64,000 bases of DNA. Origin: Planctomycetales bacterium. GTDB taxonomy: Bacteria > Planctomycetota > Planctomycetia > Pirellulales > Pirellulaceae. Location of the stretch: assembly GCA_020426845.1 (NCBI GenBank), contig JAGQPF010000255.1, forward strand, positions 1-64,000, written 5' to 3'. Both the position numbers and the translations under genes were made by a program. Shown here piece after piece: positions 37,147-57,755 of the stretch. Every line of letters begins with the position of its first letter. The stretch's first letter is position 1. Under the pieces are notes generated by a model that was not told the DNA's origin, did no database searches, and saw nothing but the letters and a program-made list of their open reading frames with translations.

Positions 37147-38772
37147 CTATTCGTCCTTGGCGCCGCCCAGCGTGACGGAGATCTTGTACTTGTTCTGCAA
37201 GTGAGCGTGGGCGGTGCTGGCGTGTTGGTCGGTGGGAAAGCGTTTGCAGACCAACTGAAACGTTTTGATCGCTTGCTCCTTTTGATCCGCCTCCTCGCGA
37301 GTGTATCCGATCTGGAGCAGTGCCCACGGCGCGGATGGCTCGTGGGCCATCACCTGGTTGTAAAGCACAATCGCCTCGCCGGGCTTCTTCAAGCGACGCT
37401 GGCAGGCGGCCATTCGCTTGTAGTTCTCCGGAAAGTTGGTGCACTGCCGGTAGTGGCCGATCGCCTCCGGCAGCTTGCCCCAATCCTCATACGCCGTCGC
37501 GATCTGCCACCGCCACCGCTCGGCGTTCTCGATGTCCGCGGCCAACAGCGACTCGTATTGCTCGATGGCCTGTTGGTACTGGCGGCCTCCCCGGTAGCTG
37601 GCCGCGATCTCCGCCTGCCACTGGATGGCGTTCTCCGAGTCCTCGGCGACGAGCTGGTTGTAGGTGGACACCGCCGACTCGATGTTGGACTGTTGGCGGT
37701 AGCTGTAGGCGACTTCCGCAAGGCCGGCGAGCTTGTCCGCGAATCTCCGATAGACAGCGCGGGCCTTGTCGAACTCATCCTGCGACTTGTGCCATTGGGC
37801 GAGCCGCCGCAGAATTTCGTCGTTGGGACCCAGCCGCTTGAAAATCTGCTCGTAGACTTGCGGCACTTCGTCCTTGTGCGCCGCAGCCTCGTGCACTTGG
37901 GCGATCTGCAGCCAATACTGCAGGGCAGCGGCGCGTGACGCTTCGTCCTCGCCGGTCGGCGCCTCGCGGGAGAAGTGCGAGATTGCCTCGCCCGCCAGCT
38001 TGTCGCATTGGGCGCGGGTGTCGTCCTTGGCCAGTTCTCGCAACGCCGGCACAACGAGAGACGCGGCCCGCGCGTCGCGCTCAGCTGCATCGTCGTAGCT
38101 CGTCGCCAACGACTTGACGCCTTCACCGAACGCACCCTGGGTGAACAGCAGCGAGGCCAAGGTGTGCGAGGCGTTTTGGCAAATCCGCGCGTTGGCCTTG
38201 CCGCGTTTGACATCAAACGTCAGCTGCTTGAGGTGTTCGAGCAAAGCGGCCTGATCCTGCTCCTGCTGAGCGAGGTCAATCAGGTCGTTCAACGCGTAGG
38301 TGGAGGCGAGGTGCTCGGGATGGTCCTTGACGACGCTGCGAAGGGCCTTCTTCGCTTGAGGAACTCGTCCCATGCCTTTGTACGTCGCGCCGATTTCATA
38401 GGCGGCGACGATCGCCTCCGGCGATTCGGGCCAGTAGTCAATGACGGACTGAAACCCGTCGCTAATGGCGGTGTTGGACTGTCGTAGCGCCACTTGGCAC
38501 TCGCTCCAGCGCAGCTGCGCGTAGGCGGCCGCCTCGCTTTGATCATAGAGCGTCAGAAACTTCTCGTATTCCGACAGGGCGACCTTGTGGTTCTTCTCGC
38601 GGAGGTACTTTTCGGCGATCTGCAACTGGTACCGCTGAGTCTCGGTAAGCTTCGCCCAACGCTCGAGCGAAAACTCCCCCAGCTGCTGGGCGCCGGCCGA
38701 AGCGGCGGAGGCGTGCATGGTCAACACGCAAGCGAGCAGCGCGCCGAGCTGAATCAAGCGTCGAGATCCCAT
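37147..38772 (-). CDS. Secreted TPR protein, last gene of the Tol-like operon
   Basis: A 541-residue exported protein. The ATG at 38772 is preceded by AGAAGGAG inside the end of the DUF4159 gene, so translation is coupled (5-nt gap). The signal peptide ends near ASAGAQQ. The rest is tetratricopeptide helices, with units such as YEKFLTLYDQSEAAAYAQLRW, AIEQYESLLAADIENAERW and AIGHYRQCTNFPENYKRM, about ten repeats. TPR arrays bind partner proteins; CpoB/YbgF of the classical Tol-Pal system is a much smaller periplasmic TPR protein. It is the last gene of a run of eight on the minus strand. No catalytic domain is seen. Confidence 0.82.
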   Translation of the reverse strand: MGSRRLIQLGALLACVLTMHASAASAGAQQLGEFSLERWAKLTETQRYQLQIAEKYLREKNHKVALSEYEKFLTLYDQSEAAAYAQLRWSECQVALRQSNTAISDGFQSVIDYWPESPEAIVAAYEIGATYKGMGRVPQAKKALRSVVKDHPEHLASTYALNDLIDLAQQEQDQAALLEHLKQLTFDVKRGKANARICQNASHTLASLLFTQGAFGEGVKSLATSYDDAAERDARAASLVVPALRELAKDDTRAQCDKLAGEAISHFSREAPTGEDEASRAAALQYWLQIAQVHEAAAHKDEVPQVYEQIFKRLGPNDEILRRLAQWHKSQDEFDKARAVYRRFADKLAGLAEVAYSYRQQSNIESAVSTYNQLVAEDSENAIQWQAEIAASYRGGRQYQQAIEQYESLLAADIENAERWRWQIATAYEDWGKLPEAIGHYRQCTNFPENYKRMAACQRRLKKPGEAIVLYNQVMAHEPSAPWALLQIGYTREEADQKEQAIKTFQLVCKRFPTDQHASTAHAHLQNKYKISVTLGGAKDE

Positions 38773-38777
38773 CGTCG

Positions 38778-40277
38778 TTACTCCTTCTTCTCTTGGGCGA
38801 GCACCCATTTGCTGTATTCGGCGTTGGCGTAGAAGATCACGTTGGTGCCGAGTTGGTAGCACGCTTCCCAGACTTCGGGCTTCACGCCGGCGTGGCCGTC
38901 GGCCCAGGCATCGCCGATGTCGCCCGGGTGGTAGTAACACAGCCAGCGCCCGTCTTTGTACCACCCCAGCGCCTCCTTGCCTCCGTGAGGAGCGACATAA
39001 GGCAGGAATGGAATCGCGAACGGAACGCGGTGGATGCGGTCATCCAAGGGAACCGGCACGGGACGGACATCCGGCAACAGCCTGCCCATCAGCGCCAGGA
39101 ACTGGTTGTGGAAAGTGCGCGAGCCGCCATTGTCGCAAAAGATGATGCCGTGATTTTCCAGCAGATATTCGCGGAGGATGCGGTCCTCGGATTTGGAGGT
39201 CGAGATGTTGCGCTGGCCGGTGATGTAAACGACCGGCGGACTGCGAAACTTGCGGAAGTTGCCCAGTCCCGCGATCGTGCGCGACTCGGTTTGTTTCTCC
39301 ACGGGGTGTTGGGTGCGAATGCCGTACTCCATCAGCATGTTCATGTCGCCGCCGACGCCAAAATCCTGGTCCCAATCGCCGCCGTCGTACTCCAGGCGGA
39401 TGAACCGGACTTTGCCTCGGGGCTTGCCGCCGCCGAAACCGGCGCCCACGCCTTCGCCCTGGCCGATGGTGTAGGCGTGCTCGGTGATCTCCTGCAGCTG
39501 CAGCTGCACGTCGTCGATCACGCGATTGTTCATAATGATGTTGCTGTACGGATTGATCACGTACTTCTTGCGAATCACCTTCTTGACCTTGACGGTCTGC
39601 GCAACGGTCTTCTCCTCTCCCCCGCCGGCGGGCAAGTCGTACACCTCTTGGCAGCCCTGCAGGTTGGTCAGCGCCAGGAACGCCATCACGAACAGCAGCG
39701 TGTAAGTGGCCAGTGTGGCGATCGACTGATTGAGCTTGCGATTCTTCGAGCGGCCGTAGTACCAAGCGTCGGGATGAAACGGATGCCATTGCCTTGGCGG
39801 CAGCTCGGTTGCCGAGGGCGGCGATTGGAGATCGAACACGTCGCGCCGGGGCCGACGCTCTCGCAGCGCCTGCGCCTTGCCGTCGACATACCAGACCGCC
39901 CAGCCGAGGCCGATCAGGAAGATGACACCCGTGCCGATCTGCGCGATCGACACGCGCGCGGCGTCCAGCAGCAGCGCGTCGCTGAAAAACAGCAACGCTT
40001 GCCAGATTAGCAGCGTGCCTGCCGTGGCGGCCGCCGCCAGACGGGGCGTCTCCCGGTGGCGAGCGGACACGTCGGTGTCTCGATCTCGAAGTTGACGATG
40101 GCCGCGAATGGCCCAGGCCCAAAGCATTCCGCCGCCAATCATCGCTGCCACATGCAGGAGCCAGTAGCACGCGACCGGCAGCCAGTGCGAGCTCGCCTGC
40201 TCCAACACCATGACGAGCCACGCGAGCAGCAGTCCGCTGACTCGTCGCGGGATCGGTGGCTGAAGTGGTTCGCTCAT
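38778..40277 (-). CDS. DUF4159 membrane protein
   Basis: A 499-residue protein with about five hydrophobic segments in the first 210 residues (~14-31, 37-57, 83-103, 108-130, 188-206). The last ends in FLALTNLQGCQ, which looks like a lipobox although it is internal. A basic/Val-rich stretch (VKVKKVIRKKYVINPYS) leads to the C-terminal DUF4159 domain (~290-495), with RLEYDGGDWDQDFG, PPVVYITGQRNIS and LGWYKDGRWLCYYHPGDIGDAW. DUF4159 proteins are usually periplasmic and of unknown function; some groups show a glutamine-amidotransferase-like fold. The gene runs with ExbB/ExbD-type genes upstream. Confidence 0.83.
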   Translation of the reverse strand: MSEPLQPPIPRRVSGLLLAWLVMVLEQASSHWLPVACYWLLHVAAMIGGGMLWAWAIRGHRQLRDRDTDVSARHRETPRLAAAATAGTLLIWQALLFFSDALLLDAARVSIAQIGTGVIFLIGLGWAVWYVDGKAQALRERRPRRDVFDLQSPPSATELPPRQWHPFHPDAWYYGRSKNRKLNQSIATLATYTLLFVMAFLALTNLQGCQEVYDLPAGGGEEKTVAQTVKVKKVIRKKYVINPYSNIIMNNRVIDDVQLQLQEITEHAYTIGQGEGVGAGFGGGKPRGKVRFIRLEYDGGDWDQDFGVGGDMNMLMEYGIRTQHPVEKQTESRTIAGLGNFRKFRSPPVVYITGQRNISTSKSEDRILREYLLENHGIIFCDNGGSRTFHNQFLALMGRLLPDVRPVPVPLDDRIHRVPFAIPFLPYVAPHGGKEALGWYKDGRWLCYYHPGDIGDAWADGHAGVKPEVWEACYQLGTNVIFYANAEYSKWVLAQEKKE

Positions 40278-40287
40278 GATGACTAGT

Positions 40288-40303
40288 CTAGTGGACCGTC
40301 AAG
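40288..40303 (+). repeat. Fragment of the ~95-bp dispersed repeat
   Basis: CTAGTGGACCGTCAAG is identical to the first 16 nt of the copies at 301-394 and 15377-15475. The following sequence (TTGGCAGGGCCGCC...) has diverged and lacks the TCGTGGC hairpin. It lies in the gap between the small membrane gene and the DUF4159 gene. Confidence 0.7.
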
Positions 40304-40372
40304 TTCGTGTTTTTGGGTTGGCAGGGCCGCCTAGTCGCGGGGCGCCTGCCGGCCGCTATCGCCGTGACGTGA

Positions 40373-40891
40373 CTACTTGGTGTCATCCAAAAGATTGTCG
40401 AGTGTGCTTTCCAGCGGGTTCTTCTTGGGATCGGCGTCTTTGGTTTCACCGATGCCGAGGTTGTCGAGCGTGGGGTCGCCGCTGAGCTTCGTGGCAGGCT
40501 CGGCGGGAGTGGCCGGAGAAGCGGCGCCGCCGCTCGGAGTTGTGGCGGCCGACTCGTTGGCTGCAGTGTTGCCGGGTTGATCGTCGTCGGTCTTTTTCGA
40601 GGACGTCGCCGCCGTGGCGCCGGACGATTTGGGAAACGCTTGCTTCCAGTAGTGGGCGCCGACACTGAGCGACAGAATCACGACCAGAAAACCGATTGCG
40701 GCGACGGTGGTGCTTCGCACCAGCCCGCTGGTGGCGACCTCGCCCAGCACTTCCTGGGGGCTTTTGCCCTTCAGCCTGCCCATGAAGTCGCGCAGCTCCG
40801 CCAAACTATGCGAGCTGTCGGCGACAACGCGCCGCATGCCGCCGCCGGTGGGCTGCTGCTGCTCGCCGACTTTGTCCTGGATATTGGCCAT
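40373..40891 (-). CDS. Small one-pass membrane protein of the Tol-like operon
   Basis: A 172-residue protein starting at ATG 40891 (MANIQDKV); an ATG four codons upstream is less likely. The N-terminus (1-60) is polar and includes SLAELRDFMGRLKGKSPQEVLG. One membrane helix (~63-83, STTVAAIGFLVVILSLSVGA) follows. The C-terminal 85 residues are Ala/Ser/Thr/Pro-rich, ending in a repeated pattern LDNLGIG..LESTLDNLLDD. The architecture of a short cytoplasmic part, single helix and flexible periplasmic tail recalls TolA/TonB-type linkers, but no TonB-C or TolA domain is present. It follows ExbD by 93 nt. No family is recognised. Confidence 0.72.
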   Translation of the reverse strand: MANIQDKVGEQQQPTGGGMRRVVADSSHSLAELRDFMGRLKGKSPQEVLGEVATSGLVRSTTVAAIGFLVVILSLSVGAHYWKQAFPKSSGATAATSSKKTDDDQPGNTAANESAATTPSGGAASPATPAEPATKLSGDPTLDNLGIGETKDADPKKNPLESTLDNLLDDTK

Positions 40892-40984
40892 GATGGAACT
40901 CAAACCGTGAGTAATTGGTAGTGGATTGTGGGTGGATTGTGGGTGGATCGTCGGGTCAATTTCGTGGATCGTGCGTCGGACCGG

Positions 40985-41389
40985 CTACGGCTCTGCCTGC
41001 TCGACCACGTGGAACAAATCTCCGCCGGCCTCGCTGACCGCCTCAATGACCGGTTGGAAGATCATCGCCTTCGACTCGCGATGAATCTTCAGCATCACGA
41101 TGCGATCGCCGGCCGGGGCGTCGCCGAGTTGTTCGCCAATGGCCCCGGACAGCTGGGCAATGCCGATTTGCTGGCCGTTGAGGTAGACCTTTTCGTCGGC
41201 GTCGATCAGCACGCTGACCTGGGCCTGCTTGCCGCTGATGGTGTCCTTGGCTTGCGCCGGCTGCCATTGCAAATGGCTGTCGTCCTGTGCCCTCGCCAAA
41301 ATGACGAAGAAGATGAGGAGATTGAACGCAATGTCCCCCATCGCCATCGTCGGCACTTCAGCTCGGGATGTCTTGCGGCGGATCTTCAT
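40985..41389 (-). CDS. ExbD/TolR-like protein 1
   Basis: A 134-residue ExbD/TolR family member. The single membrane helix (~16-34) follows MKIRRKTSRAEVPTMAMGDIAFNLLIFFVI, whose Asp is the conserved proton-carrying residue in this family. The rest is a small periplasmic domain, with VLIDADEKVYLNGQ and RIVMLKIHRESKAMIFQPVIEAVSEAG. ExbD/TolR partners ExbB/TolQ in a proton-driven motor at the inner membrane. The ATG at 41389 is chosen over one seven codons upstream. It lies 38 nt after the second ExbD-like gene. Confidence 0.9.
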   Translation of the reverse strand: MKIRRKTSRAEVPTMAMGDIAFNLLIFFVILARAQDDSHLQWQPAQAKDTISGKQAQVSVLIDADEKVYLNGQQIGIAQLSGAIGEQLGDAPAGDRIVMLKIHRESKAMIFQPVIEAVSEAGGDLFHVVEQAEP

Positions 41390-41427
41390 CGTGGCATCTG
41401 ACGTTTTCAACGGCCTCCAAACCTAAC

Positions 41428-41853
41428 CTAAGGCACTTGAATCGTTCGCTCTTCCTCGGTTTGTATCGTAAGCAGTCCGCCGGCGTCCTCGATGGTTCCG
41501 GTGACGGACATCCAGCGTTGGTATTCGACATCGCCGTCGCTGTTGAGCACCACGACTTTGTCCTCGGGGCGAGGTTTGCTGTCCAACAGGCCCTTGAGTC
41601 GCGAGAGCAGTTGCTGGTCGGAGACGGGGTCGCCATTGAGCAGCACCGCGGCGCGCTTCAATTGGACGTTGATGTGCTCCTCCTCCGCTTGCTCTTTCTG
41701 AGTCTCCTCGCTACGAGGAATGGTCTGCGGCCGTCCGCTGTCGGGCTGGACCGCAGCGCAGACGAGGAAGAACACGATCAGGTTGAACGCAATGTCTCCG
41801 GTCGCGCTGGCCGGCGGCTCAACGAGCAGCTTGGTGTTGCGTCGGCGCCTCAT
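41428..41853 (-). CDS. ExbD/TolR-like protein 2
   Basis: A 141-residue ExbD/TolR family member. The membrane helix (~19-37, TGDIAFNLIVFFLVCAAV) holds the conserved Asp at its start, within SATGDIAFN. A periplasmic domain (~50-141) carries VQLKRAAVLLNGDPVSDQQ and VVVLNSDGDVEYQRWMSV. Its ATG overlaps the TGA of the ExbB-like gene (ATGA at 41850-41853), showing translational coupling. Two unequal ExbD-like subunits in one operon occur in other Tol/Ton-like systems and may build a mixed dimer. Confidence 0.9.
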   Translation of the reverse strand: MRRRRNTKLLVEPPASATGDIAFNLIVFFLVCAAVQPDSGRPQTIPRSEETQKEQAEEEHINVQLKRAAVLLNGDPVSDQQLLSRLKGLLDSKPRPEDKVVVLNSDGDVEYQRWMSVTGTIEDAGGLLTIQTEEERTIQVP

Positions 41854-43004
41854 GATTGCGACGCGCCTCCTCCCGGTTTCTTGGCAGCGGGCGCGGCGCC
41901 GGCGACGGCGAGCTGCAGCGTCACGCCCTCGATCAACTCGGTTGTCGACTCCTCGACTTCGAGCACAAAGCGATTGATCAAGCCGGTGAAGTAGTTGTAG
42001 GCCATGAAGGCCGGGATGCCGATGATCAGTCCGAAGCAAGTGGTGATCAAGGCGACGCTGATGCCGCCGGCGGCAGCCTGCACGATGTTCTGTCCGCCGC
42101 CGGCGCCCTCGAACATCGCCTCAATGTCCTTGAAGGACGTGATCATGCCGGCGACAGTGCCCAGAAAGCCGAGCATCGGCGCGACGCTGGAGATGGTGGC
42201 GAGAATCGGCAGATGCCGCTCGAGCGCGGCCACAATGTGAACGCTGTGGTCTTCCATCGCCTTGACGACTTGCTCTTCGGTGCGAGCCGCATCGTAGTTC
42301 AGGCTTTGCAGCACCAGGTATTTGCGCAATCCGCAGGCAAGCACGGCGGGCACGGGTCCGCTGCTCTGATCGCAGCGGTGAAACGCTTCCTCCACCTGGT
42401 CGCCATGCAGCAAGTCGTGAACTTCTCGGCGCAATTGGGCGGAATCGGAGTCGAGCAGTTGCAGGCTGCGGTAGCGTTCGATGATGACGCCTGCCGCCAG
42501 TACGCCGAGCAGCAAGATGGGCCACATGAACACGCCGCCCTCCCGAATCAATCCCAGCGGCCCCGAGCGGCTGACCTCGTCCAGCCAGCCGAGCACGCCG
42601 GCGCCGGAGCCGTCGTCGGCAGGCTCCTCGCCGTCACCTTGATCGCCCTCGTTGCCGCCCTGGTTGTCGGCCGGTTTTTCATTTGCCTTGCCGGCCTGCC
42701 CGTTCTCCGCGTCGCCATCTGCGGCCGGCGTCGGTGACGCCTTAGTGTCACTGGCGGCCGGCGTGGCGCCCGCGCCGCTGGGGACAGAGGGCTGCTTGCC
42801 AGCGTCAGCCTTGGCTCCCGCCTCGCTCTTGGCCTTGCTCTTTCCCTCGCTCTTGAGGTCGTTGAGGATATCTTCCTGGCCGCTGGCGGGCAGGACGAGC
42901 AAGGCGCCGAGCAGGCTCAGTGCCAACACGGCCGATATCCGTCGCCGCAGAGGGTGGTCGATGCGGAGGTCGGTTGGGCCGGGAATTTCCTTCAGTCGTC
43001 GCAT
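41850..43004 (-). CDS. ExbB/TolQ/MotA-type proton channel with long N-terminal extension
   Basis: A 384-residue protein. Residues 1-42 are a signal-type hydrophobic stretch ending ASGQE, and ~45-150 are an Ala/Gly/Asp/Glu-rich low-complexity region. The TolQ/ExbB/MotA domain (~155-375) has a first helix with GGVFMWPILLLGVLAAGVII, a cytoplasmic loop, and the two family-defining helices VAPMLGFLGTVAGMITSF and GGISVALITTCFGLIIGIPA. The extended N-terminus is known in ExbB variants and would sit outside the inner membrane. It forms the motor with the two ExbD-like proteins. The start is at 43004, 51 nt after the giant gene. Confidence 0.9.
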   Translation of the reverse strand: MRRLKEIPGPTDLRIDHPLRRRISAVLALSLLGALLVLPASGQEDILNDLKSEGKSKAKSEAGAKADAGKQPSVPSGAGATPAASDTKASPTPAADGDAENGQAGKANEKPADNQGGNEGDQGDGEEPADDGSGAGVLGWLDEVSRSGPLGLIREGGVFMWPILLLGVLAAGVIIERYRSLQLLDSDSAQLRREVHDLLHGDQVEEAFHRCDQSSGPVPAVLACGLRKYLVLQSLNYDAARTEEQVVKAMEDHSVHIVAALERHLPILATISSVAPMLGFLGTVAGMITSFKDIEAMFEGAGGGQNIVQAAAGGISVALITTCFGLIIGIPAFMAYNYFTGLINRFVLEVEESTTELIEGVTLQLAVAGAAPAAKKPGGGASQS

Positions 43005-43021
43005 GATGAGTCTGGGTGTCT

Positions 43022-43038
43022 TTCAACAGGCTGTTAAG
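43022..43038. repeat. AACAG-G-CTGTT palindrome repeat, copy 1
   Basis: TTCAACAGGCTGTTAAG contains the palindrome AACAG-G-CTGTT. The same core is at 54951-54967 and a partial match at 57262. It lies in the 51-nt gap between the giant gene and the ExbB-like gene, where it could modulate read-through. The short stem (5 bp) is weak as a terminator on its own. Confidence 0.6.
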
Positions 43039-43055
43039 CGCGCGTTGTAGGTTAT

Positions 43056-46000
43056 TTATTGGTCCAGGTTGGCCGCTTCGGCTTCGAATTGCTGCAGCAT
43101 CTCGGGCAGCGCGAGCCGGCCGCGCGCGTACTTGGCCGCCTCGCTCGCGGGGAAGTCCCAACGGCAGCGGTTGTAGCGCTGGAAAGCCAGCGGGTTCTGG
43201 CGCCCTTGCCGGTAGCTTTCGCCGGCCCAGAACAACGCGTCCGAGGCTAGCTTGTCGTCGGGGAAGAGTTTGGCGAAGTTGTCGAACGCCTCGCCCGCGT
43301 CCATATACTTCTCCGCCTTGTAGTGACACTGTCCCACGCGGAACGCCATCTTCGGCGCATGTTGATGGCCCGCGAACTTCTCCAAGAACTTGGAGCCGAC
43401 CTGGCTGGCGACGTCAAAATTCTCGGCTTTGTAGAAGTAATCCGAGATGCGGATCATCACATTGGCGATCAACGGATTCTTCGGATAGGTCGCCGCCAGC
43501 GTGACGTAGCCCTCCAGCGCCTCGTCGAAGTCGCCCGCCTCCTCATAGCACTGCGCCAGCTTGTACTGCGCGTCGGGGGCCAGCGAGTGATCCGGGTAAC
43601 GGCGAATGATCAAGTCGTAGGACTGAATCGCCTCTTGCCAATTGCCCAACTCCTGAGCGAACTGGCCCAACAGGTAGGCGACTCGCGGAGCATATTTGGG
43701 ATCCGGGTAGTCCTCCATCACTTCGTTGAGGATTCGCCGGCCGGCCTCGAGGTCCGCGAGCTCCTCGTCCTTGCGTTCCAGGTTGCGGTGGCTCTTAAAG
43801 AGCTCGAAGTAACTCTCCGCGACATGGAATTTGGTCTCGATCGCCAGCTGCTCGTCGTTGAACACCTTGGTGAAGGCCGACACCAAGCCGTTGGTGCCGA
43901 TCACGACCGGTAGCTCCACTTTCGACTCCAACTCGCCGCTTTCGGAGCTGGCGGCGGGGTCGAGGTAGCGGACGGTCAGAGCGTCGCCGAAGTAGGTCTC
44001 CAGCGCCGGGTCGCTTTCGTCGAGATTGTTGGGGGTCGGCTTCTCGGCGGCGATCAGCTGCAGCGAGCCGGTGAACACGCCACTGTGGGCGAGCGTTTCG
44101 GAGAGCACGATCGATTCCTGCTCGCCCGTCTTGGTTTCGATTTGCAAAGTCACCGTGTCGCGCTCGTCCGAGGTGTCCTGATCGGCGTCGACGACGCGCA
44201 GGAATAGCTTTTCGCCGACATGCAGCTGCTCGATCGGCTCGTCATAATCCTGATCGGTGCAGGCGAGTTGGCCGTTGACGATCAGCCGGCCGCGGCTGGC
44301 GAGCACTTGACCATCGCCGTTGGGGCGCATTTCATCATGATAGCCCGCGGCGATCAGGTCCTTGCCGGAGACGTTCAGCACCTGCACGGTGAGGTTGTCG
44401 AGCATCTCTTGCTCATCTTCCTGCTTGGCGCCTCCGATCAAGTTGCGAGGCATCTCGGAGGTCAGCGGCACGATGGAGGGGCTGTCCTTGCTTCCCAATT
44501 GCAGCACGACCTGACCGATGAAGCGGCCTTTTTCCAATGCCAGTTCGTTGTCGAAATTGCGGCGTCCGCGCGGGCCTCGTCGCTCGCTTGAGCTGTCAAA
44601 GGCGCTGGAGAGCTCGCACTCCACTTCGATCGCGGCGCCGTTGCTCGTCTTGAGCAGCACGGTGACAGTGCTGCGGCTGTCCTTCGCCGCGTCGGGATCG
44701 ATCACTTCGACGGTCAGCGGCGCCTCAAAGGCGACACTGCTTAGCTCCTGCTCCTCGCCGGGCAAAGTGTAAGTGATCCGCGGCGGCGCATCGTTGCCGG
44801 CCGGCGCCGGTGTGATGCGGCTATCGAGAATCCGCACCAGGCCCTCGGTCGGCACATTCACCTGCACAATCGACTCGCGCGGGACCGTGTGGCCCGGGAA
44901 GGTGTTTTGTTGATCCAGGTACCGGCAGAACACGCGGTCTCCCGGCTTCACGACGAGCTTTCCGTCGGCGGGAGTCGCCGAGGTGTCGACCTCTTTGGTG
45001 AAGATGCCGCTGTACTCCTCGGTTTCGGTCGCCGTGAGCCGCAGCGGTTCGCCGTTGTTGACCACCACTTCGAACTCGATCGTGTCGCGCTCGGCGGTCC
45101 GGTCCTCGTCGTAGTCGGTGATCTGGACGATGATGCGGTCGTTCGGCTCGATTCTCAAGAGTCGCTTGGGGATTGTCTGCACTGCGCCGTTGACGCGCAC
45201 GAAGTCATAGGCGATCGACTCCACCTCGGCATTGAAGTAGGTCGCTGTCAGCTTGGCGCTGAGCAGTCGGCTGGCAGCTTCGGATGCCTGCGTGAACTCG
45301 TCGGTGTAGGTGGCAGTGACGACGTCGCCGCCAGCGATTTCCAGCACGTTGTTCTGCGCGAGCTTCAGCACATCGCCTTCGGTCGGGATGTGCAGCTGCT
45401 GGTTGTCGGCGACTTCGACGTTGGCAATGGCGAGCGCTTCGCCCAGATATTCCTGAGCGCGGAACTGCACATACCGCAGCTCGCGAGCATCGAAATGGAA
45501 TTGCCATTCGCCGCTGGTGGCGGCGACGGTCGAGCTCGTCGGCGTGAGCACGACACGTGCGAGGTCCATCAAGCCGTCGCCTTCGATGGCCAGCGGGGTG
45601 ATCTTCAGCGGGTAGGCGCCGGGCTTGTCGGCGAACACGCCGCCGATCCGCACCCGCCGGAAGCGAGGCGCCCAGCCGCCCGTGTTTTCGACCTCAGCGT
45701 CAATCTGTTGGTCGCCGAAGGACAACCGATAGGTTGATCCGCCGACCGGGTGCGCTTGTTCGATCCAGACTTCGTAGACGCCTGCGCGAGTGATGTTGAC
45801 GTCCCATTGGAGCGAGTCCTTCACGTCTTTCCAGTACCAGACGTAGGGCGGCTTGAACTCGGGGCGGACGCCGAACATCTCCGTCGTGGCGCTGACCTTT
45901 GCGCTCTCGACGGATAGTTCGATTTCCTCGCTTGGCTGCGCCGCCTGCTCGGCGACGCCTTGCGCCGTGGCTTGTGCCAAGTCGAAGTCACTTGCCTGGA

Positions 46001-49000
46001 AGGGCCGCAGCGCAATTTGCGTGTCGGCAAAGTCGCTTCGCGCCCAGGTGGCCTCCACGCCGTCGGACGCAGCGCGAGCGGCGGCAAAGATGGTCAGCTC
46101 GTGCATTCCGCCGTCGAGCCAGACGTCAACGCTGCGATTGCCCGGCCCGACCGGAAGCTCGACGACGCCGTCGACGGCCACGGCCGTCAGGGCGCCGCGA
46201 ACATGCAGGCGAATCGCGCCCGCTCGCAATTGCGGCAACTTGCCGTGCCAGATGACTCCGTAAGGGCTGGTCGAATCTTCGTCGTCCTCGGGCTTGCTCC
46301 AGCGCAGTTCGGCGGCGTCGCCCGACTCGATCGGCTGGCCGCTCTGGCCCAAGTCGGCCACTTCCTTCCAGGTGGTGAATCGAGTGAAGTTGCCGGGGAA
46401 CACGCGCTGTTGCATCGCGGCGAACTTCGCGCTGGCGGGCTCGGCCGCGTCAGGGTGCGGGTGGCTGGCGATGCGGAACCAGAACTCTCCATCCTGGCTG
46501 CCGAGCAGGTCGCCGCGGACGGGGCGATTGTTCTCGGCGTCGGCCATCGTGACCTTGACTCGCGAAACCGGCTTCAAGTCCTTCATGTCGATCGACAGCG
46601 ACTTGGGCGCGGCGCCGTCCGGCTCGCTCATCCAAAACGACTGCGGATCCTTGTCGATCGCCATCAAGGGCGAGTGGTCGATCGCCATGTCGGTTGCCAA
46701 TGCGCCCGCGGGCAGCTCGGCCGTCTCCATCCGGCCTTCAAAGACGCCGGTGTGTGAGCCAGTCTCCTTCAACGCGAACTGCACTTGATCTCCGCTGTCG
46801 GCGGCCAGCTTGACGACGACGGTGTCCTCTTCGTTGCTAAGGTCGCGATCCGGGTCCTGCACTCGCAGATAGATCAGGTTGCCTGGCTTGACCTGGTTGG
46901 CGGGCCGGCCTTGCGAGACTCGTTGATCCGCTTGTTCCCGCTCGCGCGCTTCGCGCTCGAGCCGCTCGGCGAACGACTCCTTCTCCACGTCGATGATCTT
47001 GCTGCTGGCGATTTCGAACTTGGCGTCCGCCGCCACGCGAATCTCGACGTCCGACAACGGGACGCGCTGGAACTCCTGCTTGAACTCTTCGGGATAGTCG
47101 CAGCGAACCACGTCGTTGCCGGTGAGTTGCAGCACGCCGTCGCCGGGCTTGGCTTCGCCGAGCTGGGTGTCGACGTCGACGCGGAACAGGCCTTTGCTGG
47201 CGCCGCCGCTGGTCAAGTAGACCGTTTCGCGGTCGCCACCCGGCTGGCTGACGACGATCACCTCAATGCGGCTGTGGCCGCGGCTGATGCCGAGGTCCGT
47301 GTCGTGAACGACGATCGACAGCGGCAGGCCGGGGCGGTGCTGACGCTTGCTGCTGCGGCCCAGCCGGCCGACGGTCCGCAGCAAATTCAGCTGGTCCAAG
47401 TAACGCTCTTCGGCGCCGAACACTTCCGACAGATTGAACAGCGTCTGGTTGGCGAGGTCGATGTTGGGCGCCCGCTCGAGCACGTTGCGGAAGATCTCTC
47501 GCGCCTCATCGTGATCTCCACGGCGGAACGAGAGCACGCCTCGGAGGAACTCGGCGCGAACCACAATCTCCGGATCCTGGCTGTTCGCCAGTTTCTCGAA
47601 CACTTGCTCGGCCTGGTCGAACACCTTTTGGGCCATGAACGTCTCGCCGACGCCGAACTCCGCCTCGGTCGCCTCGGGCAGGCCGGGATAGCGATTGATC
47701 ACCGTGGTGAACTCGCTGCGAGCGACATCGAACCGCTGAGAGCTGAAGTAGTTCTTGGCCAACAGCAATTGGAACCGCGCCTTCTGCGAGTCCTCGATCT
47801 GCTTCGACTCGCTGTGCTTGATCAGCCAGCTGCGCACGATCTCCTCGACGCGGTCGTAGTTTTCCTGGCCTCCGGCCGCGATGTGTTGCTCGCAAACGAA
47901 CATCACCAAGTCGGACGGCATCTCGTCGCGGTGCATGTCGAACAGCGCTTTGTTGGCCGTGTAGGCATCGAAGGCCATTCGCTGGTCGCCCAGCCGCAAG
48001 TACAGCGCGGCTTGCAGCAGCGGCGCGGTGGGGCTCGTCTCGTCGATGGTCAGGCCAACCGAGCCGATGCGGGCGTAACAGCGGGCGACCATGTCGCGTC
48101 CGGATTGCATGCGCGTGTCGCCGGCGCCGGTCAGATGCGCCAACATGCCAGTCACCAGCGTCGCGGCCTCAGCGTACTCTTGTCGCGTGAACGCGGACTG
48201 CGCGAATGGCATCAACTGATCCCAACGCGTCGCATCGTGATAGACCTCACGGGTCGGCCGCTGATAGGCGAGCAGCCTCTCCATCGGCGCCATGTCCGTG
48301 CGCTCCTCGAGCAACATCAGCTTGGCTTGTGCCGAAGGCCAATCGACCTCAAGATCGCCAATGGCCTCATATACCTTGCGCTTGGCGTCCGCCTCCATTT
48401 GCTCGTGGTCTCGGCAGGCCTGCAGCAGATAATGCAGCGCCCAGACATCGGCGTTCCAGGGCGCCAACGGCCGCTCAGCCTGTCTGCGCTTGGCGCCGCG
48501 GAGCAGTCGCTCGGCCATCGTGGCGTCACCTTTGAGCACATACTGATGGGCGAGCCAGAAGGTGAACAGCCCGTGATGATTGGTGACGTTGCGCACCAGC
48601 GGCGTCACGAACTTGATCTTCTCGTCAACTTGCTCGGCATCGATCCGGCCGAACAGCCGGCTGGCGCAGGAGGCGGCCTCGTAGTGGTCCGGGTCGATCG
48701 TGATGCCGCTTTGCCACAGCGCGATCGCCTCGTTCTCGAGCTTGAACTTCATCAGCACGTCGCCGTTGGTCGACGCGTAGCCGGGGTCCTCGCCGAACTG
48801 CTTGCGGGAGGCCTCGGCATACGCGAGCGTCTGCTTCGCCAACTCGAGGTTCTCGTTGCGATCGGCCGCGATCAGCAGTCGTCGCCAGGCGTCGGGGTTG
48901 TTGCGGTCCGGCTTGAGCTTCAGGAAGTGGCGAGCGGCCGCGTCCATCAGCTCGGGCGGCCCGAAGTCAGTGGCGGCGTTCAGGAAGTCCAGTGCGTACT

Positions 49001-50825
49001 GCGAGTTGTCGGGCTCGGCCTGCGCGAGACGTTGGTAGAACTCGACGCACTCCTCTCGCTGTTTGGCGGGGGTGTAGTGGCGCAGGTAGTACGCGTGGCC
49101 GGACCAGACCAGCTTAAGCTGCTCGGGGGAAAGTCGCTTTTGCACATCCGGATTCAGCAGTCCGCGTCTCGCTTTGCCCTGGTTGGCGGCGCCCGACGCG
49201 TTGTAGAAGCGATTCCAGGCCGCGTAGACCGGGTCGTCTCCCGCGGATTTCAGGGCGCTGGCGGCATAGTCGACTCGCCCCTTCAGCGTCATTTTCTCAT
49301 CGTAATTCGGATCGTTCTTACGGACCTTGCCGAGCGCGGTGTTCTGTTGTTTCACCCAGTTGCCGAGATACTGCGCGTAGTTGTTCAAGTGCGCAGAGCG
49401 TTGCCGCGCGGCGAGCAGTCGGTCGAAGTCGGCGCGAAACTCCTCATCCGATGTCGCCGTGTCCAGCACGTAACTCACCGCGTTCCAGGCCCGGCTGTCA
49501 TTGGGCGGGTTCTGCTCGAGCATTTCACGCAGCACCACGCGCGCCTTGGCCGGGTCCTTCAGGCGGTCGCGATAGAGATTGAACCCCAGCGCGTATTGGA
49601 TGTGATCGGGCTGAGTTTGCGTGGCCGCGGTGAGGGCCGAGCGCAGCTCTTTTTCGACCGTGGCCAAGTCGGCGGGTTCGGCCCCCGAGTAAGCAATGAA
49701 GTTCGTGGCGGCGCTATGAGTGCCGGCTTGGTGCTGCATCAGCTGCTGGAACAGCTGCCGCGCGCGGGGCTGGTCGCCATCGCGGTTGTAGGAGTAGGCC
49801 AACAGGCCGAGCGTCTGGAATCGGTCGTCTCGTTCCGGGTATTTCTTGAAGTAGTCGTCCACCACGGGCTGCAACTCGGTGGCTTTGATCGCGGCGTTGT
49901 ACATCCGCTGAATCTGCTGGTAGTGGGGCTCCTGGTCGTCGCGAATCGCCCTGGTCTTTTTGAGGCTTTCTACGGCGTTCGCGAACTGGCTTTGTCGCGC
50001 GTAGTTCTCCGCCACCCGTCGCAACAACGCCCGCCGCTGCTCCGGGTCCTTCGGCAGGTCCTTTGCCACCAGTTTGTTGGCCAATGCGTTGGCGTTGGAC
50101 CATTGCCCGATCCGCTCCCACTGCTCGACTCCTTTCAAACCAATCGCCTCGATGTACTCGTTGGCGGGAAGCTTCTCGCACATCTGCTCCGCGATTTCGG
50201 CGGCCGCCGTGATGTCCTCACGGCGCGAGGAGGCGGAGAATCGCACAACCGCTTCCGTGCCGAAATCTCGGCCAGCGGCGTTGGGTTGCTCTTCCCAAAG
50301 CCGCTGCAACACTTTGGCGGCGTCCACGCGCTCGTTCAGTTTGTCGAGCGTTGCGGCGAGCCGTTGGGCGACGTCGCGCCGCAAGGGCGATTGCGGGTAC
50401 TTTTGCAGGAATTGTCGGCAGGCGACGGTCAGGTCCCGGCTTCTCGACATCGCCTCCAGACCGTCGATCAGTTTCAGCATCACGTCGTGGTGGCGTGGAT
50501 CGGCGGGGTGCGAGGAGCTGAACTTTTGTCCGGCGCGAATCAAGCCAAATGCGCGTGCGTGTTGGTGATAAAGCTCCACCAGTTTCACGAGCGCGTCGGC
50601 AGCCTCGGGGGAAGTGTCCTTGAACTTGCCGAGCTCCGCCTCCAGTTTGGCCGCCTCGCGGCCGACTTCGTCCACTTGCCCCGCGTCGGCGTCGCCGGCG
50701 GCCGGCTGAGCACAGGCGAGCGGCGGCAGTGCCAGACACGCCCAGCCGGCGGCGAAGAGGATCGCACAGGCTGGCAGGCGCCGAACGCGGTGAATGAGAC
50801 GTTGGTTTGCAGGGCTCGTCTTCAT
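43056..50825 (-). CDS. Giant secreted TPR/beta-domain protein of the Tol-like operon
   Basis: About 2589 residues. The ATG at 50825 follows GGTGAG; a GTG four codons upstream is possible. The signal peptide ends near PLACAQ. Residues ~50-1150 are mostly TPR-like helices. From ~1165 come Asp-rich repeat modules (see 47088-47330, 46713-46886, 44868-45146, 44331-44726, 43911-44225). Between them lie a discoidin-like segment (~1380-1455), a PA14-like segment (~1515-1610) and a malectin/CBM-like segment (~1635-1765). Residues ~2315-2570 are a CpoB/YbgF/BamD-type TPR block (QEAIQSYDLIIRRYPDHSL). The protein is predicted to be periplasmic or surface-exposed. It precedes the ExbB-like gene. The Asp-rich modules and the domain order are not a family known to me. 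Confidence 0.85.
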   Translation of the reverse strand: MKTSPANQRLIHRVRRLPACAILFAAGWACLALPPLACAQPAAGDADAGQVDEVGREAAKLEAELGKFKDTSPEAADALVKLVELYHQHARAFGLIRAGQKFSSSHPADPRHHDVMLKLIDGLEAMSRSRDLTVACRQFLQKYPQSPLRRDVAQRLAATLDKLNERVDAAKVLQRLWEEQPNAAGRDFGTEAVVRFSASSRREDITAAAEIAEQMCEKLPANEYIEAIGLKGVEQWERIGQWSNANALANKLVAKDLPKDPEQRRALLRRVAENYARQSQFANAVESLKKTRAIRDDQEPHYQQIQRMYNAAIKATELQPVVDDYFKKYPERDDRFQTLGLLAYSYNRDGDQPRARQLFQQLMQHQAGTHSAATNFIAYSGAEPADLATVEKELRSALTAATQTQPDHIQYALGFNLYRDRLKDPAKARVVLREMLEQNPPNDSRAWNAVSYVLDTATSDEEFRADFDRLLAARQRSAHLNNYAQYLGNWVKQQNTALGKVRKNDPNYDEKMTLKGRVDYAASALKSAGDDPVYAAWNRFYNASGAANQGKARRGLLNPDVQKRLSPEQLKLVWSGHAYYLRHYTPAKQREECVEFYQRLAQAEPDNSQYALDFLNAATDFGPPELMDAAARHFLKLKPDRNNPDAWRRLLIAADRNENLELAKQTLAYAEASRKQFGEDPGYASTNGDVLMKFKLENEAIALWQSGITIDPDHYEAASCASRLFGRIDAEQVDEKIKFVTPLVRNVTNHHGLFTFWLAHQYVLKGDATMAERLLRGAKRRQAERPLAPWNADVWALHYLLQACRDHEQMEADAKRKVYEAIGDLEVDWPSAQAKLMLLEERTDMAPMERLLAYQRPTREVYHDATRWDQLMPFAQSAFTRQEYAEAATLVTGMLAHLTGAGDTRMQSGRDMVARCYARIGSVGLTIDETSPTAPLLQAALYLRLGDQRMAFDAYTANKALFDMHRDEMPSDLVMFVCEQHIAAGGQENYDRVEEIVRSWLIKHSESKQIEDSQKARFQLLLAKNYFSSQRFDVARSEFTTVINRYPGLPEATEAEFGVGETFMAQKVFDQAEQVFEKLANSQDPEIVVRAEFLRGVLSFRRGDHDEAREIFRNVLERAPNIDLANQTLFNLSEVFGAEERYLDQLNLLRTVGRLGRSSKRQHRPGLPLSIVVHDTDLGISRGHSRIEVIVVSQPGGDRETVYLTSGGASKGLFRVDVDTQLGEAKPGDGVLQLTGNDVVRCDYPEEFKQEFQRVPLSDVEIRVAADAKFEIASSKIIDVEKESFAERLEREAREREQADQRVSQGRPANQVKPGNLIYLRVQDPDRDLSNEEDTVVVKLAADSGDQVQFALKETGSHTGVFEGRMETAELPAGALATDMAIDHSPLMAIDKDPQSFWMSEPDGAAPKSLSIDMKDLKPVSRVKVTMADAENNRPVRGDLLGSQDGEFWFRIASHPHPDAAEPASAKFAAMQQRVFPGNFTRFTTWKEVADLGQSGQPIESGDAAELRWSKPEDDEDSTSPYGVIWHGKLPQLRAGAIRLHVRGALTAVAVDGVVELPVGPGNRSVDVWLDGGMHELTIFAAARAASDGVEATWARSDFADTQIALRPFQASDFDLAQATAQGVAEQAAQPSEEIELSVESAKVSATTEMFGVRPEFKPPYVWYWKDVKDSLQWDVNITRAGVYEVWIEQAHPVGGSTYRLSFGDQQIDAEVENTGGWAPRFRRVRIGGVFADKPGAYPLKITPLAIEGDGLMDLARVVLTPTSSTVAATSGEWQFHFDARELRYVQFRAQEYLGEALAIANVEVADNQQLHIPTEGDVLKLAQNNVLEIAGGDVVTATYTDEFTQASEAASRLLSAKLTATYFNAEVESIAYDFVRVNGAVQTIPKRLLRIEPNDRIIVQITDYDEDRTAERDTIEFEVVVNNGEPLRLTATETEEYSGIFTKEVDTSATPADGKLVVKPGDRVFCRYLDQQNTFPGHTVPRESIVQVNVPTEGLVRILDSRITPAPAGNDAPPRITYTLPGEEQELSSVAFEAPLTVEVIDPDAAKDSRSTVTVLLKTSNGAAIEVECELSSAFDSSSERRGPRGRRNFDNELALEKGRFIGQVVLQLGSKDSPSIVPLTSEMPRNLIGGAKQEDEQEMLDNLTVQVLNVSGKDLIAAGYHDEMRPNGDGQVLASRGRLIVNGQLACTDQDYDEPIEQLHVGEKLFLRVVDADQDTSDERDTVTLQIETKTGEQESIVLSETLAHSGVFTGSLQLIAAEKPTPNNLDESDPALETYFGDALTVRYLDPAASSESGELESKVELPVVIGTNGLVSAFTKVFNDEQLAIETKFHVAESYFELFKSHRNLERKDEELADLEAGRRILNEVMEDYPDPKYAPRVAYLLGQFAQELGNWQEAIQSYDLIIRRYPDHSLAPDAQYKLAQCYEEAGDFDEALEGYVTLAATYPKNPLIANVMIRISDYFYKAENFDVASQVGSKFLEKFAGHQHAPKMAFRVGQCHYKAEKYMDAGEAFDNFAKLFPDDKLASDALFWAGESYRQGRQNPLAFQRYNRCRWDFPASEAAKYARGRLALPEMLQQFEAEAANLDQ
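43911..44225 (-). other. Asp-rich repeat module 5 of the giant protein
   Basis: Residues ~2205-2310 read LFLRVVDADQDTSDERDTV, then ETLAHSGVF and a Y-L-D end. This matches the shared pattern [VI]xDxDxD...RDTV...ET...SGVF...GDxxxxxYxD. Placement is by counting the translated sequence, accurate to a few residues. Confidence 0.75.
44331..44726 (-). other. Asp-rich module 4 of the giant protein (degenerate)
   Basis: Residues ~2038-2170 begin LTVEVIDPDAAKDSRSTVTV, replace the SGVF core with a RFIGQV-type segment and insert about 35 residues. They end DLIAAGYHDEM. It is the most divergent of the five. Confidence 0.55.
44868..45146 (-). other. Asp-rich repeat module 3 of the giant protein
   Basis: Residues ~1898-1990 read RIIVQITDYDEDRTAERDTI, then ATETEEYSGIF, GDRVFCRYLDQ. 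The five conserved elements are all present in order. Confidence 0.75.
46713..46886 (-). other. Asp-rich repeat module 2 of the giant protein
   Basis: Residues ~1318-1375 read LIYLRVQDPDRDLSNEEDTV, then KETGSHTGVFEGRME. The terminal GD..Y.D element is missing, and a discoidin-like segment follows directly. Confidence 0.7.
47088..47330 (-). other. Asp-rich repeat module 1 of the giant protein
   Basis: Residues ~1170-1250 read LPLSIVVHDTDLGISRGHS, then GGASKGLFRVDVDT and GDGVLQLTGNDVVRCDYPEE. The RDTV element is replaced but the order of the other elements is kept. Confidence 0.65.
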
Positions 50826-50893
50826 GAGACAGCTCACCGGAGTTGGCTTTGGAGAAGGGGGCGAGGCGGCGGCGCAAAGGCGCCGGCCCGGGG

Positions 50894-53272
50894 CTAGGGA
50901 GCGGCAGGCGGCGTTGCAGCCTGCTGCGAGGTCAAGGCGTCGGAGATCTTCTTGGCGTCGGGCGCCAGCGGGCTCTCGGGGAACTCGCCGATCAGCTGGT
51001 CGAAGCGGCGCTTGGCCTCGGTGCGGCGCCCCATGCGGAACAGGCAGCGCCCGTAGTTGAACAGGATCACGTCCAGGAACTTCGCGTCCGGGTGATTGCC
51101 CAGCACGTTCTCGAACGTGTCAATCGCCCGCGCGTAGTCCTTCTGCTGGTAGTAGTAGTTGGCCATCTTGGCGACGGCCTCGCCGACCCGGCCGCTCTCG
51201 GGAAACAGGTCGTACACCTTCTTGTACTCCTGAAATGCGCGGTCCATTTGCTGCGCGGCGTTGGCGCCAGCCGTCTCGGCCATTTGCTCATAGCACGAGG
51301 CGATGCCAAACTGCGCCTCGCCGCGAAGCATGCTCGTCTGCATCCGAACCAGCCGCGTGTAGATGCCGATGGCGCGGTTGAACTGCTGCTCCTTGCGAGC
51401 GACGTCGGCGAGCTGCAGCAACGCGTCGTCGACAAATCCGCTGTTGGGGAATTCTCGTTGCAGACGCTGACACATCGCGGCGGCCAGCTCGAGCCGGTCC
51501 ATTTCGAAGTAGATCTTCCACAACTGAACGTAGGTCTCTTCGAGCAGCCGCCCGCCCATCGAGCGGACCTCGTCCATGATCTCCTCGCAAACATCCAACG
51601 CCAGCTGGTACTTTTCCTGGGCATGGCGTTGGAGCCCGAACTCTTTGTAGCGGCTGGCGATGTTGGTCAACGCGCTGGCCGTCTTCAATTGCGTCTGCAC
51701 GCGCAGTTCGGCGTCGGTGATCACGGCTCGCGTCACCCGGACGCCGCCGATGTTTCCCTCCAGGCAGCGGGCCTCCGCGCTGACCTCGCGGACGCCTTCG
51801 AGCCGATGGCGTTCGTCGAGGTAGACGACGCGAATCTTGTCGCTGGGAAGCGCTTGGAGGATGGCGTCGTTGTCGACGACCGCGTCGGTCTTCTCCAAGG
51901 CGATCGTGGCTCGGAAAACGCCCGAGTGAATCGTGTTGTCGACCGCGGGAGCGGCCACTACGGACTCCGTGGGATCCGATGGTTGAGCCGGTTGAGAAGT
52001 GGCCCCGGTGGCCGCCTCTTCAGTGGCGGGCGAGCTCTCCGGCTGTTCCGGCACGTCTGCGTTTCCGGCGTTCCCGGCATTTGGCAACCGCACCTCGAGC
52101 TGCTGAACGACGGCCTCCGTCAGCTGCACGCGAACTTGGTCGACTCGCTTGTACGGCTCGACTTCGATCTCGCCCTCGCTCTCATCGCCTCCGGCGGCGT
52201 CTCGTTTGGCGGCCAACGCGGCCGACTCCGCCTCCAATTCCTCAACGCTTTTCAGGCGATGAACTTCGACGACCGCGGCGATGCCGTCGGCCTGATCCGT
52301 GGTGTCGCCGTCCGCGTCGCTGATTTGTAGGTTGACGTTTTTGCCGAGCACAACGCCGCGGAGCGACTCGCGAAAGGCGCCGTCGGTAATCTGCACATGG
52401 CCATTGCCGACGACGGCGATCTGCTTCAGCACGGCGCGATCCAGCTGCTTCTCGGCGGTGTGTTGGTCGGTGTACGTCACTTCCACCTGATCACCGCCAC
52501 GGACCTCGAGCACGCCGTTGCCGGGAACCGGACTGCCAAGCCGCGTCGAGAGCGAGCCGAGCACAAGTCGCACATTGCGGCCGATCGGGTGGCAACGCAG
52601 CTTCTCTTCGTCACCGCTCGCCGCTTTGCAGATCACGTCAACCGCCTCGTCCGGATCCAGCACGGCCAGGTCGGCATCTTCAATCTTGACGAACAGCCGC
52701 TTGCCTGCCTCGAGCCGCTCGCCGCCCGAGTCGTCGGCCTCCGCCAAGGTGGTGCCCACCTTCTCCAAAGCATCGATGGCGCGGCTGTAGTGGCCGAGTT
52801 GGAAGTGCCCGAGTCCGATGTAGTAATAGGCATGATTGACTTGCGGGCTGACAGGGAAGGTCTCGATGACATCCCGCATCACCTGAAAGCACTTGCCGTA
52901 GTTGCGATCGTGGTAGAAGCATTCGCCGAGTTTCAGCATCGCCTCGGCGCGCTGTTGTTGATCGCGATTCTCCTCCGACGCGACGACGTCGAAATGCGAG
53001 CGAGCCCGCTCGTAGGCGCGCTCGCGCTCGAGGTAATAGTTGCCGAGCCGCATGTGGGCGATCAGTCGCACCCGGCTGGCCGGATAGCGTTCGATCACCG
53101 ACTGCCAGAGCTCCACCGCCTTGGCGAACTCGTCGATGTCGAATCGCGAGTCGCCGGCTTCGATCAGTTTCCGCGCAGCGCGGTCCTCAATCAGCGAGCC
53201 GCGCGGGGCTGGCTGGGCGGCCAGCGTGGAGGGCAGAATCGCCAGAACAATCAGGACGTGATGAGCACGCAT
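50894..53272 (-). CDS. Secreted TPR protein with Asp-rich modules, first gene of the Tol-like operon
   Basis: A 792-residue protein. The ATG at 53272 starts a signal peptide (RAHHVLIVLAILPSTLAAQ), although no good ribosome site precedes it; an upstream ATG would add 19 residues before the signal and is rejected. Residues ~25-185 are TPR helices (FAKAVELWQSVIERYPASR). Residues ~190-270 and ~310-490 hold two modules of the kind seen in the giant protein (RLFVKIEDADLAVLDPDEAV; NLQISDADGDTTDQADGI, then HSGVF and VVYLDE). Residues ~545-780 are TPR again, ending with TEAKRRFDQLIGEFPESPLA. It leads the operon, 57 nt before the giant gene. Same family as the giant protein, shorter. Confidence 0.85.
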   Translation of the reverse strand: MRAHHVLIVLAILPSTLAAQPAPRGSLIEDRAARKLIEAGDSRFDIDEFAKAVELWQSVIERYPASRVRLIAHMRLGNYYLERERAYERARSHFDVVASEENRDQQQRAEAMLKLGECFYHDRNYGKCFQVMRDVIETFPVSPQVNHAYYYIGLGHFQLGHYSRAIDALEKVGTTLAEADDSGGERLEAGKRLFVKIEDADLAVLDPDEAVDVICKAASGDEEKLRCHPIGRNVRLVLGSLSTRLGSPVPGNGVLEVRGGDQVEVTYTDQHTAEKQLDRAVLKQIAVVGNGHVQITDGAFRESLRGVVLGKNVNLQISDADGDTTDQADGIAAVVEVHRLKSVEELEAESAALAAKRDAAGGDESEGEIEVEPYKRVDQVRVQLTEAVVQQLEVRLPNAGNAGNADVPEQPESSPATEEAATGATSQPAQPSDPTESVVAAPAVDNTIHSGVFRATIALEKTDAVVDNDAILQALPSDKIRVVYLDERHRLEGVREVSAEARCLEGNIGGVRVTRAVITDAELRVQTQLKTASALTNIASRYKEFGLQRHAQEKYQLALDVCEEIMDEVRSMGGRLLEETYVQLWKIYFEMDRLELAAAMCQRLQREFPNSGFVDDALLQLADVARKEQQFNRAIGIYTRLVRMQTSMLRGEAQFGIASCYEQMAETAGANAAQQMDRAFQEYKKVYDLFPESGRVGEAVAKMANYYYQQKDYARAIDTFENVLGNHPDAKFLDVILFNYGRCLFRMGRRTEAKRRFDQLIGEFPESPLAPDAKKISDALTSQQAATPPAAP

Positions 53273-54950: not shown

Positions 54951-54967
54951 TTTTCAACAGGCTGTTA
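54951..54967. repeat. AACAG-G-CTGTT palindrome repeat, copy 2
   Basis: TTTTCAACAGGCTGTTA carries the same palindromic core as 43022-43038. Here its last three bases, read on the minus strand, are the TAA stop of the DUF1549/DUF1553 gene. Confidence 0.65.
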
Positions 54968-57106: not shown

Positions 57107-57114
57107 CACGGAGG

Positions 57115-57119
57115 CTCCT
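57115..57119 (-). promoter_or_regulatory. Ribosome binding site that fixes a GTG start
   Basis: AGGAG on the minus strand, 8 nt before GTG at 57106 (5 nt before the adjacent GTG at 57109). It decides between the GTG and a far upstream ATG for the DUF1549/DUF1553 gene. Confidence 0.6.
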
Positions 57120-57589: not shown

Positions 57590-57755
57590 CGTGGCACAGG
57601 CTGCCAGCCTGTGTTGATGTCGTGGCACAGGCTACCAGCCTGTGATGGTGTCGTGGCACAGGCTGCCAGCCTGTGTTGGTGTCGTGGCACAGGCTGCCAG
57701 CCTGTGTTGGTGTCGTGGCACAGGCTGCCAGCCTGTGTTGATGTCGTGGCACCCC
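57590..57755 (+). repeat. 31-bp tandem array of palindromes, five copies
   Basis: Units start at 57590, 57621, 57652, 57683 and 57714, with a sixth broken unit at 57745. Each reads CGTGGCACAGGCTGCCAGCC then TGTGTTGRTGT (one copy has GCTACC). The core CACAGGCTGCCAGCCTGTG is the first palindrome of the composite element at 63649. The array lies upstream of the SDR gene. Confidence 0.95.

Follow-up and report, generated by a model that had tools for sequence, protein, structure and literature searches.

Which machine is encoded by a planctomycete gene cluster that joins the subunits of a TolQ/TolR-type motor with a giant tetratricopeptide repeat (TPR) protein? The question is raised by positions 37147-53272 of the window analyzed here, that is, the whole 64,000-nucleotide stretch from contig JAGQPF010000255.1 of a Planctomycetales bacterium, in which an earlier note had seen an eight-gene operon for an ion-driven envelope machine. 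All eight open reading frames (ORFs) are present on the minus strand, from 53272 down to 37147 (every gene of the module lies on this strand), and Pfam and NCBIfam confirmed one ExbB/TolQ-like protein, two ExbD/TolR-like proteins, three TPR proteins (TPR811, the giant protein and TPR541) and a DUF4159 protein. The remaining gene encodes a one-pass tail protein, for which Pfam gave no family match. Thus, the eight genes are real, but the operon as first described was incomplete upstream, where a DUF1501 gene and a PSCyt2/PSD1 gene belong to the same conserved unit. We estimate a probability of about 0.6 that the module is a dedicated trans-envelope machine of planctomycetes and verrucomicrobia, driven by ion motive force, with the clients and scaffold proposed below.

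The motor is encoded by three consecutive genes. The ExbB/TolQ-like subunit (384 amino acids (aa); 41850..43004) belongs to the MotA/TolQ/ExbB channel family according to its Pfam match (MotA_ExbB, PF01618, E = 1.3e-27) and its pore Thr residues, T283 and T321, which are invariant (61/61) in an alignment of relatives. Subunits ExbD1 (141 aa; 41428..41853) and ExbD2 (141 aa; 40985..41410) both fall into the ExbD/TolR family by their matches to Pfam ExbD (PF02472; E-values of 6e-17 and 3e-15 in the two proteins) and by an Asp in the transmembrane (TM) helix, invariant in the corresponding alignments as Asp20 (66/66) and Asp26 (71/71). With these Thr and Asp residues kept, which we take to be the essential residues of ExbB/TolQ and ExbD/TolR, the motor looks functional. 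A likely ion-driven machine, as had been proposed, is also consistent with the finding that its genes remain associated in two phyla.

A scan of named genomes yielded 195 relatives of the DUF4159 protein, and the loci of the best 80 of them, 15 of which are from Verrucomicrobiota, were compared. As far as the contigs reach, gene order and strand agree in all 80, so that the expected conservation of order in other species was indeed observed. The complete ExbB-to-DUF4159 core was found in 60 of these loci, with the giant gene upstream in 55 and TPR541 downstream of DUF4159 in 62; TPR541 is absent despite room in 13, and the giant gene is not nearby despite room in five. Seven further genera of the window's family and order also keep this gene order, within the reach of the contigs, and the cluster is split in an eighth (G034). 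An assembly chimera was suspected there until the same split was seen in a second family (f23), where TPR811-giant-ExbB-ExbD1-ExbD2 lies apart from tail-DUF4159-TPR541, the two blocks being divergent neighbors in one genome; the split in G034 may therefore be real. Among 397 genomes of the class, the DUF4159 gene occurs in 49 and the giant, searched with a 601-aa fragment as query, in 52, which include all of the 49. The giant is thus present in 49/49 DUF4159-positive versus 3/348 negative genomes (Fisher p = 1e-59, uncorrected for kinship of the genomes), and the three giant-only genomes are fragmented assemblies. Moreover, this co-occurrence persists even where the cluster is split over the genome. 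The Verrucomicrobiota sequences make up a single group in the DUF4159 tree, nested among those of planctomycetes, a position that would fit a single transfer between the phyla. Taken together, the module genes very likely constitute one functional unit.

The roles of the tail and DUF4159 proteins are suggested by a sister system, a diverged homologue found mainly in other planctomycete families, with the layout TPR-TPR811-giant-ExbB-ExbD1-ExbD2-tail-DUF4159. Sister systems occupy the other side of the DUF4159 tree from the clade of the window (the main clade), with a support of 98, and some branches are long. The tail protein (176 aa; 40373..40903) has a conserved cytosolic segment (ELRxFL..GKSPQE..G), one TM helix, a disordered linker and a conserved C-terminal peptide (LGIGETK..NPLE..LD.LLDD). 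A His lies in its TM helix in 15/15 sister systems, in surroundings that resemble those in TonB/TolA, for example LLALSLVIHAGVIVGTS. The DUF4159 protein (499 aa; 38778..40277) is assigned to its family by Pfam (PF13709, E = 7.6e-28) and by its fold. Its structural model shows five TM helices between residues 11 and 206 and, at approximately 290-490, a globular domain, which the number of helices and the charges would place in the periplasm. The best structural match of this domain is Hoch_4089 of Haliangium ochraceum (4i66; Z 23.2, 1.8 Å over 186 residues, 19% identity), followed by glutamine-amidotransferase-like folds (Z of about 8-10). The last TM helix (TM5) follows the pattern [SA]-x3-[HY] in 17/17 sister proteins, with His in 16 and Tyr in the other. 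By these sister His motifs, the tail protein and the last DUF4159 helix appear to be TonB/TolA-like elements, and both proteins are probable clients (1 and 2, respectively) that dock on the motor. The suggestion of the earlier note that the tail protein may stand in for TonB/TolA is thereby strengthened, and its idea that TPR proteins take this place is not upheld.

Examination of ExbB revealed a Ser in TM1 of 13/13 sister ExbBs, at the position (167) where 59/59 main-clade ExbBs have Gly, Leu, Ala or Met (G167 in the window). The same Ser is found in two other ExbBs of the window's genome that are paired with His-bearing clients. Hence, it accompanies both client His residues and is absent where both have been lost (13/13 versus 0/59). 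As this is a single correlated change between two clades, the link between the Ser change and the His loss is suggestive only.

Several variants of the clients were also observed. The tail homologue of an Opitutia member of Verrucomicrobiota (L139) has a GYF_2 domain in its cytosolic part (Pfam, E = 1.1e-10), and three further Verrucomicrobiota tail proteins (L127, L162 and L164) have an extra N-terminal domain which by eye is similar to it. In two sister loci of family f74 (L197 and L198) the tail protein is 364-380 aa long with several TM helices and the His on the last one; their genomes also carry another sister system with the short form. A tandem duplication of the DUF4159 gene (13397-14995 and 15037-16623) was seen in sister locus L195. 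In addition, a GC pair after TM5 of the DUF4159 protein is conserved in 83/83 sequences of the first set; a lipoprotein cut after TM5 was considered and dropped, as family f23 does not have the Cys.

A more fitting role for the TPR proteins is that of exported scaffolds resembling CpoB and S-layer proteins. TPR811 (50894..53272; most likely starting at ATG 53272, which gives 792 residues) matches YbgF in Pfam/NCBIfam, and its model shows TPRs at 27-170, two beta-sandwich domains at 186-504 and TPRs again at 521-786. In structural alignments, the first stretch of TPRs matches YbgF (2xev; Z 16.0, 1.6 Å), and the beta-sandwich region matches Ig domains from the Nitrosopumilus S-layer (8c8m; Z 15.2, root-mean-square deviation 8.5 Å over 211 residues). 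The giant exported protein (2593 aa; 43056..50837), which has segments in common with TPR811, contains TPR arrays at both ends, with Ig-like, discoidin-like and DUF5077-like domains between them, the latter two kinds as weak matches; it also matches an anammox S-layer protein model weakly (1.4e-6), far below the curated cut-off. In the giants of family f23 and of part of family f22, no match to the DUF5077-like region at approximately 1630-1775 was obtained, so that it is either absent there or strongly diverged. The third exported TPR protein, TPR541 (541 aa; 37147..38772), closes the cluster.

The next two genes upstream of TPR811 encode a DUF1501 protein with a twin-arginine-like N-terminus (SRRQLL; 53618..54877) and an exported PSCyt2/PSD1 protein (DUF1549+DUF1553; 54965..57379), whose true start is probably some 95-110 codons inside its ORF. 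Although both families have many copies per genome, particular orthologues follow the module. A single strong match to PSCyt2/PSD1 (44-61% identity) was present in 23/24 module-positive genomes besides the window's own, G005 being the exception, and no orthologue was detected in seven module-negative relatives or in five sister-system genomes. A DUF1501 orthologue (57-76% identity) adjoins it in nearly all module-positive genomes tested, the exceptions being G023 and G005 (in the latter a partial copy, 75% identity, lies at a contig edge); the seven module-negative relatives have no orthologue, only paralogues of at most about 43% identity. Among the genomes tested, orthologues of the pair are therefore confined to main-clade positive ones. 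Six of six Verrucomicrobiota genomes that were tested keep PSCyt2/PSD1, DUF1501 and TPR811 side by side, ordered as in the window; elsewhere the pair adjoins the ExbD genes (G142) or lies about 0.7 Mb away (G420). With this pair included, the whole unit is ten genes of about 20 kb (57379-37147). Part of it may already be among the DUF1501-containing gene clusters of Planctomycetes-Verrucomicrobia-Chlamydiae (PVC) bacteria reported by Kamneva et al. 2012 (doi 10.1093/gbe/evs113), as these are cited in PMC4452313 and PMC4960237. A literature search for DUF1501 together with DUF1553 found nothing, and one for DUF4159, including its combination with ExbD, found no paper mentioning DUF4159 in the library searched.

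The gaps from TPR811 to TPR541 are approximately 56, 51, -4, 17, 81-93, 95 and 5 nucleotides, varying with the start codons, and the ExbB and ExbD1 genes overlap by ATGA (41850/41853); a gap of 345 nucleotides precedes TPR811. Scans for sigma-70 promoters and terminators gave matches no better than those in shuffled sequences. Short direct repeats (translated as WHRLPAC/GTGCQPVL) lie in 57477-57970, between the module and the next gene.

How might these parts work together? ExbB would form a ring with the two ExbD-like proteins in its pore, and two membrane-tethered clients would each use one helix to dock on this ring, in the manner of TonB and TolA. Client 1, the tail protein, would offer a flexible linker with the conserved terminal peptide at its end, and client 2 the rigid, glutamine-amidotransferase-like periplasmic domain of the DUF4159 protein. 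Motor strokes would then be handed on to the exported TPR proteins. Of these, TPR811 and the giant join TPR arrays to Ig-like domains, which in TPR811 are S-layer-like, and the giant is of sufficient length to span the periplasm. As exported proteins, DUF1501 and PSCyt2/PSD1 might act together with this scaffold. Most likely, such a machine would move or remodel outer-envelope or cell-surface material, in a layout comparable to that of Agl-Glt/Nfs in Myxococcus. The observations above support the motor, the clients and a module that forms one unit; the direction of work and the cargo are our inference. In a bolder version, which we regard as doubtful, one ExbB ring with an ExbD heterodimer drives flexible and rigid TonB/TolA-type clients at once and works a surface-reaching scaffold of more than 2500 residues, docking in the main clade having become His-independent through a compensating change in ExbB. 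If true, this single-ring two-client machine would be a new class of envelope machine.

Several points weigh against a trans-envelope machine of this kind. Docking of the clients in the window's clade is inferred from the sister clade: the His of the S-x3-H motif occurs in 0/75 tail helices of the window's clade, and in TM5 of the DUF4159 protein the docking His has been lost, with Tyr192 in 81/83 aligned sequences (two of the 83 are sister sequences). The accompanying change of the ExbB Ser is one clade-level event rather than many independent ones. TPR and Ig domains are generic. Neither an outer-membrane barrel nor a peptidoglycan-binding domain that could carry force out of the periplasm was found in the cluster. 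Finally, a link of PSCyt genes to carbohydrate metabolism has been described (PMC5615132) and would suit uptake better than movement.

Other explanations have to be compared with these data. That the neighboring genes are functionally unrelated is scarcely credible: the generic nature of the TPR proteins is all that favors it, and the common order in 80/80 loci and the all-or-none co-occurrence, even when the cluster is split, contradict it. The earlier statement that no described system has this composition holds in part, as two published systems are similar and neither matches by the features tested. One of them is Agl-Glt/Agl-Nfs (AglR, AglQ, AglS and GltA-K; PMC3169522), which likewise combines one ExbB-like and two ExbD-like proteins with several TPR proteins, including a giant one, and with a one-pass client that has a cytosolic part and a flexible periplasmic part. 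GltG, composed of FHA, TM, Pro-rich and TonB parts, contacts AglR (PMC3169522), and AglRQS also drives spore-coat assembly (PMC3858216). A surface transport or gliding machine of this type, moving surface complexes along the cell, would account for the subunit count, for TPR proteins that are exported and include a giant, and for the cytosolic domain of a client (GYF_2 in the Verrucomicrobiota tail protein, to which GltG is comparable), and both the AglR-GltG contact and the role in spore-coat assembly speak for it. Such a machine is possible, if hardly favored, since the giant, unlike GltI, for which no signal peptide is listed, is an exported protein, DUF4159, DUF1501 and PSCyt2/PSD1 are additional to the listed Glt proteins, and the cluster has no OmpA-like gene. 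Agl-Glt is also spread over several gene clusters, whereas the module forms one. Because no TonB-like client C-terminus and no outer-membrane barrels are found in the cluster (the rest of the genome was not searched), the module is not Agl-Glt by the features tested. A literature search for GltJ with GYF found nothing.

The other similar system is the TPR-TolQ-TolR-TolR-vWA cluster of PVC bacteria, in which the vWA clients carry an S-x3-H-type helix motif (Mol Biol Evol 2025, PMC12204202). It occurs in the same phyla and shares with the module a TPR gene, one tolQ-like gene and a tolR-like pair, and with the sister systems a tethered client with a TonB/TolA-type helix. Despite this common layout and helix motif, a further copy of the published transducer cluster is quite improbable. 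Instead of a C-terminal vWA, Pfam gives DUF4159 in the client, whose fold is glutamine-amidotransferase-like (4i66, as above) and which has five TM helices; the additional one-pass client, three TPR proteins (one of 2593 aa) and two further exported genes go unmentioned in PMC12204202; and a separate vWA-like client exists beside another ExbB in the same genome. At that locus (G000:C160, L039, 7732-11077), the neighborhood of the ExbB includes a one-pass protein that resembles the transducers of PMC12204202 in its S-x3-H helix and vWA-like C-terminus (DCSGSMKG). Another motor cluster of this genome (G000:C719, L043; 3815-7171, 7346-8299 and 8809-13923) encodes a 1119-aa TPR protein, an ExbB and a third, long protein. 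The long protein combines an S-x3-H helix (LSLMVHLIMII) with about 1000 residues of disordered linker and a C-terminal part that by eye looks like an alpha/alpha-toroid (only a sub-threshold Pec_lyase match). No name for the ten-gene system was found.

Tol-Pal consists of TolQ, TolR, TolA, TolB, Pal and CpoB, and the module resembles it in its TolQ/TolR-type motor and YbgF/CpoB-like TPR domains. Of 60 genomes of the order that were searched, the window's among them, none has TolB (TolB_N), be they module-positive or not, with positive controls in E. coli and others. Both facts would suit a lineage-specific Tol-Pal substitute that holds the outer membrane to the wall in division. However, the module differs in having two TolR-like subunits, and no TolB and no Pfam match to a Pal/OmpA or TolA C-terminal domain were found in the cluster. 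Since TolB is missing with or without the module, which is patchily distributed (49/397 class genomes), a general Tol substitute is unlikely. A relationship to TonB-ExbB-ExbD is indicated by the motor family and, in the sister systems, by the motor-facing His on a tethered client, and one may tentatively think of a TonB-like energizer by which glycans or other large substrates, captured on the giant as a scaffold, are taken up. The weak discoidin-like and DUF5077-like matches agree with this, as do PSCyt genes of other genomes with their sulfatase neighbors and carbohydrate-binding modules (PMC5615132). By contrast, no TonB-dependent receptor, porin or transporter is present in the cluster, and no TonB C-terminal domain was matched in its proteins by Pfam/NCBIfam. 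A dedicated trans-envelope machine acting on outer-envelope or surface material thus remains our preferred explanation.

TolB is lacking in this order of planctomycetes, and the ways in which its members energize the outer envelope are poorly known. Ten genes that have kept their order in both Planctomycetota and Verrucomicrobiota, and that have a deep sister clade, present specific points at which to probe an energized machine, namely Asp20 and Asp26 of the ExbD subunits and the TM helices of the two clients. The module also provides a functional context for DUF4159 and for one lineage each of DUF1501 and PSCyt2/PSD1.

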